Shown piece by piece: positions 19,296 through 32,912 of a stretch of 33,024 bases of DNA. Numbering within the stretch: position 1 is the first letter of the stretch; each line of letters starts with the position of its first letter. The DNA is from Thermodesulfovibrionales bacterium (GTDB lineage: Bacteria; Nitrospirota; Thermodesulfovibrionia; Thermodesulfovibrionales; UBA9159). Position numbers and translations under genes: made by a program. The stretch covers positions 1 to 33,024 of the forward strand of contig DASRZP010000030.1 in NCBI GenBank assembly GCA_035686305.1, read 5' to 3'. The notes beneath the pieces are model-generated. The model saw nothing but the letters and a program-made list of their open reading frames with translations, ran no database searches and was not told the DNA's origin.

Positions 19296-19540
19296 TGGAC
19301 GTGGTCCCCCTTTCATGGCATTTTTGAGGGCAGGGGGCGGATCTGACTTACTACGCTTCTGTAAGGATTACTGCGGCGCGTTTGTCGTATGGAGTCGCGA
19401 CGGAACGGCAGGGGAAGGAGAAGATCTCTTGAAGCGGATCCCCCAAAACACGCCTGATGCGGACGGTCCCGTTGACTCAGCGATTCTTTTACTCTCTATA
19501 GTCCTTACAAGAAGCAATGCCGTAAGAAAAATCAACCGAA
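19296..19540. other. About 245 bp leader between 6S RNA and rny
   Basis: No gene is supported here. The open frames that cross it on either strand have odd composition and also run through the 6S RNA. It probably holds the rny 5' leader or promoter on the minus strand. No strong terminator follows the 6S RNA, so the RNA may be processed from a longer transcript. Confidence 0.4.
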
Positions 19541-19725
19541 TAAGCCCGCCCTGCCGTGCAGGAGAAAAATTAGATCCGCCTATAAAATAGGTGGGTGTCC
19601 TGAAGGAGTCATTAGGCTTCTGAGCAGCTTGCTCAGCATGCACACCGATCTCCTTACTCGTACTCCCAAAAGATCTAATTTGCCGGATCAACTCTTTCGC
19701 CTTTCACGCGCAGGGCAGGCAAGCT
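19541..19725 (-). ncRNA. ssrS: 6S RNA
   Basis: 6S RNA binds the housekeeping sigma-factor form of RNA polymerase as an open-promoter mimic. On the minus strand, outer arms GCCTGCCCTGC (19720-19710) and GCAGGGCGGGC (19554-19544) pair with one wobble, and inner arms AAATTAGATC and GATCTAATTT pair perfectly around 19673-19682 and 19566-19575. The apical part has GGTGTGCATGCT, a 7-bp hairpin (CTGAGCA, loop AGC, TGCTCAG), then AGAAGCCTAA, and later GGACACCCACC. E. coli 6S has the same order: GGUGAGCAUGCU, hairpin, AGAAGCCUUAA, GACACAUUCACC. Length (about 185) fits. A location beside rny fits too. Ends are approximate by about 10 bases. Confidence 0.88.
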
Positions 19726-28721: not shown

Positions 28722-28963
28722 TCGCAGAACTCAGCCCTGAACTCTTCGGTTTCACAGAGCTCCCTCAGAAGACGATGGGCCTCCAACCCTGCTTCGCGGT
28801 CGATCTTCTGGATCGCGAAACCGGCATGGACGATGACAAAATCACCGACCCTCACTTCTTCCGGAAGGAGGAGAAGACTTACTTCCCTCCTGGCCCCTGA
28901 CACATCGATCGAGGCCATCCTGTCATTTATGCTGATAATTTCTGAGGGGACCGCAAGACACAT
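28718..28963 (-). CDS. hypC: Hydrogenase maturation chaperone HypC
   Basis: This 81-residue chaperone delivers the Fe(CN)2CO group with HypD to the hydrogenase large subunit. The start is placed at 28963 so the protein begins MCLAVP; Cys2 is the essential HypC residue and must be N-terminal. A GTG at 28975 would put it at position 6. The OB-fold pattern VGDFVIVHAGFAI near 48-60 is typical. It begins inside the last 37 bases of hyaD and overlaps ubiX by four bases. Confidence 0.92.
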   Translation of the reverse strand: MCLAVPSEIISINDRMASIDVSGARREVSLLLLPEEVRVGDFVIVHAGFAIQKIDREAGLEAHRLLRELCETEEFRAEFCE

Positions 28964-29424
28964 GCTACTTTCCACTCCTCCAAAGATTTGACAGCGAGGT
29001 CGATCACATCTTCCATAATAGCACGAATGGGCTCTGTCATGGTAAGTCCGAGTTCAAGGGATTGCGGCTGGATCCCGATGAGGCGAATCTTCGATGGTTT
29101 CATGTCAAGCAATTTTGCAGCAAAGAGGAGGTCAGAGAGCCCGATATGGTGCACCGAGAGCTTTGTGAAGAGCTGTGAAGGGATATTATCGTCTTCGAGA
29201 ACACCGATATGGGCTGGTTCCTTTCTGAAATCGACGGCGTCGATGAGGAGGATCTTGTCTTTCCCTTCTAAGAAATGGAGAAGGTCAAGGCCCAGCGTCC
29301 CACCATCAAGGATCTCCGGCTCCGGAGAAAAGGTATACCGTTCCTTCATGGTGTTGACGACATGGACCCCGATCCCTTCGTCCGTCAAGAGTATGTTTCC
29401 GAGACCTATGACCAGTATGGACAA
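28927..29424 (-). CDS. hyaD: Hydrogenase maturation endopeptidase (HyaD/HybD type)
   Basis: This is a protease of about 165 residues that removes the C-terminal peptide of the large subunit after nickel insertion. The family start ILVIGLGNILLTDEGIGVHV is clear, and the nickel-sensing residues are the acid in TDEGIG, D in ILDGGTLGLDLL and H in HHIGLSD. I place the start at TTG 29422-29424 because upstream codons only overlap the cytochrome gene and do not resemble the family; GGAGG lies 12 bases upstream, rather far. It should cleave HyaB after H554 (see hyaB). Confidence 0.92.
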   Translation of the reverse strand: MSILVIGLGNILLTDEGIGVHVVNTMKERYTFSPEPEILDGGTLGLDLLHFLEGKDKILLIDAVDFRKEPAHIGVLEDDNIPSQLFTKLSVHHIGLSDLLFAAKLLDMKPSKIRLIGIQPQSLELGLTMTEPIRAIMEDVIDLAVKSLEEWKVACVLRSPQKLSA

Positions 29425-29431
29425 TGTGCCG

Positions 29432-30076
29432 TCATTCCTCCATATTCTTGTAACCGCTGAAGATCGAGCTCGTGAGGCCGTTCCGCTCGACGATATCATT
29501 GTGCCAGGAGATGTAGACGTGGATGATCGTAAATGCGACGATGATCCACAGCACGCAGTGATGGATCAACCGTACGGTCCCGGTACTCATGAAAGAGAAA
29601 AGCCATCCGCCCGCAACGGTCATGAGCCACCCACCACCATGGGTCTCGGAAAAGAGGGCAAACCCCGTCAGGATCTCGATAACGAAGACGATGAAGAGGG
29701 TGAAGTAGGTCAGCCCTGCCATGCCGGTATGACCAGGGGAGTGGGGCAGATCATCTTTGAGGAAGGCATAGAACAACGCCGTGTCGATGGTATTCTTCCA
29801 GCGCGCGGCGTTCACAAAGATGAACTGGTTCATCCTCGCGTACTTGTTGCCCGCAAACCACCAGTAGATCCTCACGAGAAAACTCACGACAAACACATAG
29901 GCCGAGATGAAGTGGATGTACCGCATCTTGGCCATAATGAACTGATTCTCTCTGACAGCATGGATGAAGGGTGCCCCGATATAGAACCCGGTGACCGAGA
30001 GCATCACGATGGCGACGACATTCACCCAGTGCGTCAATCGAACCGGAAACTCCCAGACATACAGTGCCTTTGTCAT
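29432..30076 (-). CDS. hyaC: Hydrogenase b-type cytochrome subunit
   Basis: This is a 214-residue membrane diheme cytochrome b that links the periplasmic hydrogenase to the quinone pool. Four transmembrane helices are visible at about 18-38, 53-75, 122-143 and 168-190. Histidines suited to bind the two hemes are H16 (RLTHW), H55 (RYIHF), H172/H173 and H186, the family pattern. It starts 9 bases after hyaB. Together with the Tat signal of HyaA it indicates an uptake enzyme feeding electrons into quinones. Confidence 0.95.
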   Translation of the reverse strand: MTKALYVWEFPVRLTHWVNVVAIVMLSVTGFYIGAPFIHAVRENQFIMAKMRYIHFISAYVFVVSFLVRIYWWFAGNKYARMNQFIFVNAARWKNTIDTALFYAFLKDDLPHSPGHTGMAGLTYFTLFIVFVIEILTGFALFSETHGGGWLMTVAGGWLFSFMSTGTVRLIHHCVLWIIVAFTIIHVYISWHNDIVERNGLTSSIFSGYKNMEE

Positions 30077-30085
30077 GGCCGCCTC

Positions 30086-31795
30086 CTAGGTTACCCTTAC
30101 CTTGATGATCTCATCGCGCTCTGCATCGACAACGTGGATCGCGCATGCCATGCAGGGATCGAAGGAATGGATGGTCCTCAGGATCTCCAGGGGCTTGTTC
30201 GGATCTTTCAACGGGGTGCCGACCAAGGCAGCTTCATAGGGGCCCCTCTGTCCCTTTGCGTCCTTAGGAGAAGAGTTCCATCCGCCGGGGACAACACACT
30301 GATAGTTCGCGACCTTGCCGTCTTTGATCACCACCCAATGACCGAGTGCGCCGCGCGGCGCCTCGTGGAAGCCGAAGCCCTTTGCCTCTTTGGGCCATGA
30401 AGAGGGTTCCCATTTCTCAGGGTTATGGATGCGGAAGTCTCCGGCCTTGATCTTTGCCGCCAGATCGCCGATCCAGACGGGAAGCATCTCAGCGGTCACG
30501 AGAGTCTCGATACCCCTTGCAGCGGTCCGTCCGAGCGTCGAGAAGAGCGCTTCCGGCCCAACTCCAAGCTTCTGGAGGACCATCGTGACCACTTCCTTAA
30601 TCCGCTTATGGCCTGAGGCATAGGCGATGAGCATCCTCGATAGGGGACCAACCTCTGTCGAAAGCCCGTCATAGCGAATACCCTTGACCCAGCTGTACTT
30701 CTTGTTCGTGTCGAGAAATTCGTAGGGCGGTTTCGGACCAGTGTAGTTGGGGTTCGTCTCACCGTCCCATGGATGCTTTGCCTTTTCGTCGCCGTCACTG
30801 TACTTGTACCAGGCATGGGCAACATCCTCGGTGACCTTCTTGTGCTCGACAGGCTCAACCTTTGCCAGATTCTTGGCCCTGATAAAGCCTGCAGGCAGCC
30901 AGGTGTTCGTCGTGTTACTTACATTGTCGTTCTGGAACTCGCCATAGGAGAGGTAATTGCCGACCCCGGCCCCGATGCCGGCCCATTCCTTATAGAAGGA
31001 TGCCACAGCGAGGAGATCAGGGATATACACCTTCTCGACAAAGTCAAGGGACTTCTTGGCAACCTCGTTCATGAAGGCGATGCTTCCGGCATTGATGGCA
31101 TTCTGACTATTGGGGTCAACGGGAATGGCCATCCCTCCCACGAGCCAGGTCTGGGGATGGGGGTTCTTCGCGCCGAGGAGGGCCTGCATCCTGATGACGT
31201 CCCTCTGCCAGTCCAATGCCTCGAGGTAATGGGCTACCGCCATGAGGTTCGCCTCAGGAGGAAGTTTGTATTCAGGATGTCCCCAATATCCGCTGGCGAA
31301 GATGCCGAGCTGTCCGCTCTCGACAAGGGCCTTCACCTTGCCTTGGACGGCTTTGAAATAGGTCGGCGAGGAGTTCGGCCAGTCGGATATGGATTGCGCA
31401 AGACCTGCGGTCTTCATAGGATCGGCCTTCAATGCGCTGACGACGTCTACCCAGTCCAGGGCATGGAGGTGGTAAAAGTGTATGACATGGTCCTGAACGT
31501 ACTGGATGCCGTTGATAAGGTTCCTGATGATCCTTGCGTTGTCAGGGATTACTGCGCCTACTGCATTTTCCACGGCTCTCACGGAGCACTGTGCGTGGAC
31601 CGTTGTTCAGACCCCTCATATTCGCGAGACAAAGGCCCAGCACTCCCGCGGATCCCTCCCTACCACGATATTCTCGATGCCCCTCCACATGGTGCCCGAT
31701 GACCAGGCTTCTGTGACCTTGCCGCCGTCAACCTGCGCCTCGATTCTCAGATGTCCTTCGATCCTTGTTATCGGATCAATCGCGATCTTTGCCAT
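30086..31795 (-). CDS. hyaB: [NiFe(Se)] hydrogenase large subunit with two in-frame TGA codons at the L1 nickel motif (candidate double selenoprotein)
   Basis: The gene should start at ATG 31795, which has AGGAGG 6 bases upstream and gives the classic [20 protein letters not shown]. The open frame is then broken by TGA at 31618-31616 (residue 60) and 31609-31607 (residue 63), and is otherwise intact to residue 569. The two TGAs replace precisely the cysteines of L1: RI-TGA-GV-TGA-TTVH instead of RICGVCTTVH. The L2 motif DPCMACAIH keeps C548 and C551, and a 15-residue tail after H554 is the expected protease target. The likely reading is Sec at both sites, helped by a hairpin at 31570-31598. 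A naive call starts at GTG 31582 and loses the L1 motif. The enzyme oxidises H2 in the periplasm with hyaA and hyaC. A nonsense-mutated pseudogene is the alternative. Confidence 0.88.
31570..31598 (-). promoter_or_regulatory. SECIS-like hairpin for UGA readthrough in hyaB
   Basis: In the mRNA CCACG (31598-31594) pairs with CGUGG (31574-31570) and GCUC pairs with GAGC, closed by the 5-base loop CGUGA with GU in it; CACAGU forms a one-sided bulge. The loop starts 24 bases after the second UGA and 33 after the first, inside the 16-37 range described for bacterial SECIS elements. G is the second loop base, as the model asks. Coding constraints limit it, so it is a candidate only. Confidence 0.55.
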
Positions 31796-31823: not shown

Positions 31824-32912
31824 TTATTTCTTCTCTTCTTTGTGGGGCGTGCCCTTGATCGCCCTTCCGACAGCATGGATTGCTACGCCCGCTGCCGCTG
31901 CAGCAGCGACGCCGAGACCGATCTTGTCCGCGCTCGTCTGATATCCCGCACCCGGTACGTTCTCAAGCCTTTTGTAGATGGGTCCGAAGACGTCCCAGTT
32001 GTCGTTTGCAGCGCAGGCGATGCAGCCGTGTCCTGCCTGGACAGGCCAGCTCGTTCCGGTGTTGTATTTCACCGTCGGGCAATTGTAATGAGCCTCGGGT
32101 CCCTTACAGCCCATCTCATAGAGGCACCAGCCTTTCCGGTGTCCTTCATCACCCCACTGACGGACAAACTGTCCTGCGTCGAAATGGGCGCGCCTCTCGC
32201 AGTTGTTGTGGATGATCTTGCCGTATCCAAAGAGCGGACGGTGCTGTGCATCGAGGGCGGGGAGCGTTCCAAAAGTCAGGTAGTGGACAATTGTCGCCGT
32301 TGCATTTTCAGGATTATGAGCGCAGCCCGGGATATTGACATAAGTTATTCCAGGGACGGCTGCTCCTGTGCCTACCGCGCCGGTCGGGTTCGGCTTGGCG
32401 CTGGCGATGCCTCCCCAGGACGAACAAGAACCGACATTGATGGTAAAGGCGGCGTTGCCGCAGACTTCTTTGGCGATCTCTAAGGCCGTTCTCCCTCCGA
32501 TCGTACAATAGACACCGCCGTCTTTCGTTGGGATCGCACCCTCAACAATCGCGATGTACTTCCCTTTCTGGTTCTTCACCACGTCCTGGAGGGCCTTCTC
32601 GGCGCTCTTTCCTGCGCCTGCCATGATCGTCTCATGATACTCCAGGGAAATCACATCGAGGACGATCTCTGCAATCGTCGGTTTGGTGGCACGGAGGATC
32701 GCCTCTGAGTCCCCTGCGCAATCCTGGAATTCGAGCCAGACAACATAGGGCTTCTGCTTCTTCTCAAGGGCCTCGACTATCTGGGGGACAAAAGAAGAAG
32801 GCAATGCCAGGGTAGCTGCCATGGCAGTGCAGAACCTCATGAAATCCCTCCGTGAGACGCCTTTCCTAGCGAGACTTTCTGCAATACTTGAGCCATCATC
32901 AAATGTGCTCAT
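31824..32912 (-). CDS. hyaA: [NiFe] hydrogenase small subunit with Tat signal; Asp replaces one proximal-cluster Cys
   Basis: This 362-residue iron-sulfur subunit has a Tat signal SRRDFMRF at 20-27, a following hydrophobic run, and a C-terminal membrane helix at about 331-349. The proximal cluster motif reads DCAGDSEAI: C65 is present but D68 stands where the family has Cys (CxxC), while C163 (GSCSSWGG) and C197 (IPGCAHNP) remain. Distal ligands are H235, C238, C263, C269, and medial C278, C297, C300. Start at ATG 32912 gives the Tat signal close to the N-terminus; ATG 32984 is rejected because it extends beyond. It is the first gene of the operon, 28 bases ahead of hyaB. Confidence 0.95.
   Translation of the reverse strand: MSTFDDGSSIAESLARKGVSRRDFMRFCTAMAATLALPSSFVPQIVEALEKKQKPYVVWLEFQDCAGDSEAILRATKPTIAEIVLDVISLEYHETIMAGAGKSAEKALQDVVKNQKGKYIAIVEGAIPTKDGGVYCTIGGRTALEIAKEVCGNAAFTINVGSCSSWGGIASAKPNPTGAVGTGAAVPGITYVNIPGCAHNPENATATIVHYLTFGTLPALDAQHRPLFGYGKIIHNNCERRAHFDAGQFVRQWGDEGHRKGWCLYEMGCKGPEAHYNCPTVKYNTGTSWPVQAGHGCIACAANDNWDVFGPIYKRLENVPGAGYQTSADKIGLGVAAAAAAGVAIHAVGRAIKGTPHKEEKK

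Follow-up and report, generated by a model that had tools for sequence, protein, structure and literature searches.

In group 1h [NiFe] hydrogenases a specific aspartate coordinates the proximal [4Fe4S] cluster (PMC7174314), and a survey published in 2014 reported, at the same position, Cys-to-Asp in Geobacter and Cys-to-Asn in Nostoc punctiforme (PMC4070099). The A. macleodii hydrogenase was still measurably active with every natural substitution tried in that survey, C81D and C81N included (PMC4070099). The enzymes of Roseiflexus, with which the present enzyme will be compared, belong to group 1f (PMC6776052).

A second class of described systems is that of the [NiFeSe] hydrogenases (D. baculatum and D. 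vulgaris HysAB; Frh/Vhu), in which Sec is one of the ligands that the large subunit provides to the Ni site, as is probably also true of the enzyme described here. The Sec of the UxxC motif in the known [NiFeSe] hydrogenases sits in L2. A 2026 review of prokaryotic selenoproteins lists no Sec-containing [NiFe] large (alpha) subunits other than those whose UxxC motif has a single Sec (PMC13188914). We have found no description of Sec in L1 of [NiFe] hydrogenases in the open-licence literature that we searched, which is not proof of absence.

The window, that is, the whole stretch of 33,024 nucleotides analysed, contains the hydrogenase genes listed in Table 1. HyaA, which begins with ATG, belongs to the [NiFe] hydrogenase group 1 small subunits on the basis of its score of 420.6 bits against NCBIfam TIGR00391 (cut-off, 179.5), and it has a Tat signal. 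With HyaB it would form a membrane-anchored, Tat-exported group 1 uptake hydrogenase, passing electrons to the b-type cytochrome. The L1 context of HyaB reads RI-U-GV-U-TTVH and its L2 is an ordinary DPCMAC, and the sequence-only reading was right that both L1 Cys positions are in-frame TGA codons. HyaB is not of the [NiFeSe] type with Sec first in an L2 DPUxxC, because its L2 is DPCMAC and its score against NF045518 is 392.5, with a cut-off of 780. The known [NiFeSe] enzymes have one Sec, in UxxC (PMC13188914), whereas the HyaB family has one or two Sec codons, located in L1. Standard gene calling would start hyaB at GTG 31582 and lose the L1 motif, and therefore such enzymes may be scored as truncated in surveys. 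The genome of the window has a second, split PF00374 match without TGA (L005, on contig C136).

Table 1. Features recognised in the window, with positions counted from its first nucleotide
Feature	Position	Strand	Description
hyaA	31824..32912	(-)	Small subunit of a [NiFe] hydrogenase (362 aa) with a Tat signal and an anchor-like stretch at the C-terminus
Cys65	32718..32720	(-)	Proximal ligand 1, invariant
Asp68 codon GAC	32709..32711	(-)	Position 2 of the proximal-cluster C-x-G-C motif
Cys163 (GSC)	32424..32426	(-)	Proximal ligand 3, invariant; ligand role by alignment with known small subunits
Cys197 (IPGC)	32322..32324	(-)	Proximal ligand 4, invariant; ligand role by alignment with known small subunits
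hyaB	30086..31795	(-)	Large subunit of 569 aa, with read-through of two in-frame TGA codons
TGA codon 60	31616..31618	(-)	First L1 Cys position (RI-U-GV-U), probable selenocysteine
TGA codon 63	31607..31609	(-)	Second L1 Cys position, probable selenocysteine
SECIS-like hairpin	31570..31598	(-)	Within hyaB, downstream of both TGAs
hyaC	29432..30076	(-)	Ni/Fe-hydrogenase b-type cytochrome (TIGR02125)
hyaD	28927..29424	(-)	Hydrogenase maturation protease family, TTG start
6S RNA (Rfam RF00013)	19539-19724	(-)	

Residues 62-71 of HyaA are F-Q-D-C-A-G-D-S-E-A, and in alignments to the solved structures of D. vulgaris Miyazaki F and E. coli Hyd-2, D68 shares a column with the second Cys of their C-T-G-C. 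The proposal that Asp stands here in place of a proximal-cluster Cys, made from DCAGDSEAI, is thus borne out, and so is the accompanying description of CTGCSE as standard and CTCCSE as oxygen-tolerant, since Hyd-2 has CTGC and both Hyd-1 and the R. eutropha MBH have CTCC. The remaining proximal Cys and the medial and distal Cys positions are all intact in HyaA, so that only residue 68 differs. Because the other cluster Cys are kept and the residue-68 column is Asp or Asn in 124 of 129 HyaA-type rows, Asp68 is neither a chance occurrence nor a lone error. The oxygen-tolerant six-Cys [4Fe-3S] signature of group 1d (CTCC and a second extra Cys) is absent from HyaA in the alignment columns concerned, where Gly67 and Gly168 stand at the positions at which the group 1d references carry Cys. 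Of the 124 rows of the Asp/Asn clade, 114 have Cys151 (32462-32460), where most Cys-68 enzymes have Ala or Gly; this near-invariant Cys may be a clade marker or a structural partner. We have also repeatedly seen a C-C-G-N proximal motif with Cys66 and Asn68 (L050, L095, L180, L198, L205, L208 and others), whose Cys66 could act as an alternative ligand.

The precedent in Ralstonia, which had been named for group 1h, lies in the same alignment column as Asp68 of HyaA (CDGDS and CAGDS, respectively). The group 1h small subunit used for this comparison is an entry of the R. eutropha megaplasmid pHG1 that is mislabelled HypE, and we have confirmed its identity with PDB chain 5aa5_A (HofK). HofK of Ralstonia/Cupriavidus necator (actinobacterial-type group 1h, PDB 5AA5) thus shares the Asp, in C-D-G-D as against C-A-G-D in HyaA, but it has no Tat signal, belongs to a different operon and is 24% identical overall. 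This identity does not indicate close kinship, HofK being also the weakest of 43 PDB matches, and since HyaA belongs to another clade than HofK, the shared Asp is either convergent or very old. Much nearer are the group 1f enzymes of Roseiflexus and Acidobacteriota, which in the rows compared show 58% identity in the small and 61-67% in the large subunit and likewise have a non-Cys residue 68 and Cys151; unlike HyaA and HyaB, these rows have Asn at 68 and a Cys L1 (CxxC) throughout. The Asn68 of the sampled Roseiflexus and Acidobacteriota rows is replaced by Asp in the window, and the wider clade of the window has both residues. On the basis of the precedents in group 1h, Geobacter and N. punctiforme, Asp68 is therefore a known type of substitution.

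By analogy with group 1h, Asp68 most likely ligates iron, and the proximal cluster would then be held by Cys65, Cys163, Cys197 and most likely Asp68, as a 3Cys-1Asp [4Fe-4S] cluster. A rather unlikely alternative is that residue 68 fills a gap without being a ligand and that the proximal cluster is [3Fe-4S], as all three clusters of Huc (group 2a) are judged to be from the density, from EPR and from the residue in the fourth coordinating position (PMC10017518). The free interchange of Asp and Asn in HyaA-type enzymes and the Asn at the same position in the group 2a-type enzyme of N. punctiforme (PMC4070099) are consistent with such a cluster; against it, the group 1h Asp at the identical position is described as coordinating a [4Fe4S] cluster (PMC7174314), and Asp retains a negative oxygen ligand. 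Either a 3Cys-1Asp [4Fe-4S] or a [3Fe-4S] cluster would change the potential of the first relay. With the favoured Asp-ligated [4Fe-4S] cluster, Asp68 would be likely to shift both the potential and the oxygen behaviour of this first relay cluster. The genome of the window has two full-length matches to the heme-copper-oxidase family, one further short match and a dsrA homologue; these make oxygen exposure plausible, and the enzyme may be tied to oxygen tolerance in this organism.

The sequence-only reading had further proposed that the Asp and the altered L1 ligands form a co-evolved, unusual electron path, and had suggested placing the enzyme in a class phylogeny and examining whether Asp68 and the L1 UGA pair occur in the same clade. 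Public genomes supplied 80 relatives, and both the phylum and the class were searched genome by genome. After dereplication 130 enzymes remained, and for each locus we read the small-subunit residue, with residue 68 defined by alignment column, and both L1 residues. Among the HyaA-type enzymes of this set, Asp68 occurred with UxxU in 42, with CxxU in 5 and with CxxC in 7 enzymes, Asn68 with UxxU in 29 and with CxxC in 26, and Cys68 with CxxC in 5. The Hyd-2-type enzymes, all with Cys68, comprised 8 with CxxU, 2 with UxxU and 3 with CxxC, and the three references each had Cys68 and CxxC. The proximal residues and L1 states therefore occur in all main pairings, except that no enzyme of the HyaA-type clade has Cys68 with Sec. 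Asp68 with an ordinary Cys L1, the very occurrence in sister enzymes that had been named as grounds for treating the two features as unrelated, was found in seven sister rows (L029, L034, L158, L164, L068, L070 and L091). Three of these (L091, L068 and L070) come from MAGs labelled Acidimicrobiia and Desulfuromonas, far from Nitrospirota.

After removal of the trait columns, the concatenated subunits were used for a quick, unrooted maximum-likelihood tree, in which some rows are long. The enzyme of the window lies among Nitrospirota enzymes with Asp and UxxU and adjoins the Roseiflexus/Acidobacteriota clade, a non-Cys residue 68 being common to both. Nearby Asp rows have CxxU or CxxC, either reverted or retained (L027, L018, L158, L164, L029 and L034), and everywhere else in the Sec clade the rows switch back and forth between Asn and Asp. 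By parsimony, Asp and Asn have been exchanged at least 10 times among the Sec rows, and the L1 state has changed at least 7 times among those with Asp. In 9 independent Asp/Asn contrasts (starred branches) the L1 state was the same in 8.5 on average, and in 6 independent Sec contrasts the D/N-versus-Cys state was the same in 5.8 on average, so the two traits do not change together.

It is thus very improbable that the proximal Asp and the altered L1 ligands co-evolved as a single unusual electron path. What speaks for this proposal is that all 91 Sec-L1 rows of the HyaA type carry Asp or Asn, and none Cys; set against it are 33 Asp/Asn rows with a Cys L1, the UxxU and CxxU found with CTGC in the Hyb-type clade, and the tree contrasts without joint change. 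The proposal consequently does not hold, Asp being found with Cys L1, Asn with the UGA pair and UGA with CTGC. An unlikely, although less remote, explanation is that Asp/Asn served as a permissive background: in this lineage L1 Sec could arise only once thiolate loss had shifted the cluster, and the covariation has since disappeared. The Asp or Asn in every Sec row of the HyaA clade would fit this explanation, as would the wide occurrence of D/N without Sec in lineages that branch off outside the Nitrospirota clade with Sec, but the Hyb-type clade acquired L1 Sec with CTGC, and there is only one origin on a D/N background. Since Sec occurs on an Asp/Asn background here and on a Cys background in the Hyd-2-type enzymes, we regard the two features as neighbours, not as a co-evolved pair. 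Of the two traits Asp/Asn is the more widely distributed; L1 Sec nests in part of it and occurs also in a separate Cys-68 lineage.

This separate lineage is a Hyd-2-type enzyme (hybOABC order) of the same Nitrospirota class, which has CxxU or UxxU in L1 together with a standard E-C-T-G-C small subunit. Its gene order, assigned by eye from the sequences, is small subunit, HybA-like, HybB-like and large subunit, and is common to group 1c Hyd-2 (hybO-hybA-hybB-hybC); E. coli Hyd-2 itself has Cys in L1, whereas its relatives in this second clade have CxxU or UxxU with a normal CTGC. As read from these codons, the L1 Sec of the Hyd-2-type enzyme is an origin independent of that in the HyaA type. 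The loci concerned are L173+L243, L175+L247, L167-L171, L174 and L232-L236.

The UGAs in L1 of HyaB are probably selenocysteine codons. The pattern TGA-GGN-GTN-TGA-ACN-ACN-GTN-CAY was present in 71 of the 396 genomes of the phylum, representing 49 of 170 genera and all belonging to the class of the window, and a reversed control of this pattern was present in none of the 396. Conservation downstream of the TGA pair spans the full length of the large subunit. The genome of the window has selB and a tRNA-Sec above threshold; no tRNA-Sec was found at the selB locus, the gene being located on another contig. SelB was above the cut-off in 31 of 33 tested genomes with Sec in L1 and in 10 of 17 with CxxC enzymes (Fisher p 0.004, for genomes that are related and in part incomplete).

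The SECIS-like hairpin has an upper part GCUC-CGUGA-GAGC (31587-31575) and a lower helix CCACG/CGUGG (31598-31594 with 31574-31570), and its loop lies 23 nt past the second TGA and 32 nt past the first. Codons 69-73 are near-frozen in the UGA genes (Val72 is GTG in 89 of 90, Arg73 is AGA in 79 of 90) and variable in the Cys genes; the 21-base stretch has just 20 distinct sequences among about 90 UGA genes, as against 40 in the Cys genes. Two different stems are possible beneath the [C/G]GUGA loop, and 15 of the 20 UGA sequences form all six pairs of one or the other, compared with 7.6% of synonymous shuffles; full pairing is found in 4 of the 40 Cys-gene sequences. The two stem types differ through paired changes on both sides. 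In the window and its nearest kin, 4 of the 6 generic-stem positions are paired, and these sequences have a 4-bp upper stem and the distinct CCACG/CGUGG lower helix. Taken as a whole, the region does not fold more stably than its synonymous shuffles (minimum free energy, mean z 0.10 for the HyaA-type UGA set), and the case for a SECIS therefore rests on the specific hairpin and the frozen codons. At hyaB, Rfam scans, in which bacterial SECIS elements are poorly covered, gave no RNA above threshold, whether a known SECIS or of another kind. The locus thus appears to have what is expected of a bacterial selenoprotein gene, namely in-frame UGA at Cys positions, a downstream SECIS-like hairpin, SelB and tRNA-Sec.

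That the TGAs are ordinary stops, arising from gene decay or sequencing error, so that the Asp would belong to the partner of a dead enzyme, is extremely improbable. The standard code does end hyaB at codon 60, and ORF callers would begin at the downstream GTG mentioned above; opposed to this are TGA-x-x-TGA exactly at both Cys codons in the 71 genomes, the full-length conservation beyond the TGAs, selB and tRNA-Sec in the genome, and a hairpin frozen at synonymous sites. We have rejected the sequencing-error or pseudogene reading of hyaB on the basis of the class-wide TGA pattern and the empty reversed control.

We have good confidence in the combined reading, namely that Asp68 is inherited and a likely ligand in a group 1 uptake enzyme and that the L1 Sec is separate, nested and not co-evolved with it. 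A large clade that includes group 1f and the Nitrospirota family appears to have exchanged the proximal Cys for Asp or Asn, with frequent interchange between the two, and the L1 selenocysteines would have arisen in the same class of bacteria as a distinct, nested innovation. It is also likely that there exists a [NiFe] family with Cys in L2 and with selenolates for both L1 ligands, of which one is a terminal ligand of Ni and the other bridges Ni and Fe, with two separate origins in one Nitrospirota class and, in the present lineage, a non-Cys proximal cluster. The surprising part of the locus is this L1-Sec [NiFe] family, with Sec at one or both positions and in two lineages, and not Asp68.

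Asp68 extends a known substitution to a further lineage. The thiolate at proximal position 2 has been lost in many hydrogenases, Asp and Asn being interchangeable. Natural enzymes with Asp and CxxC, Asp and UxxU, Asn and UxxU, and Cys and UxxU separate two variables that are otherwise confounded, and make it possible to test individually how the proximal ligand and how selenium in L1 affect oxygen tolerance and bias. With Sec in L1, known [NiFeSe] chemistry would reach the bridging position as well.
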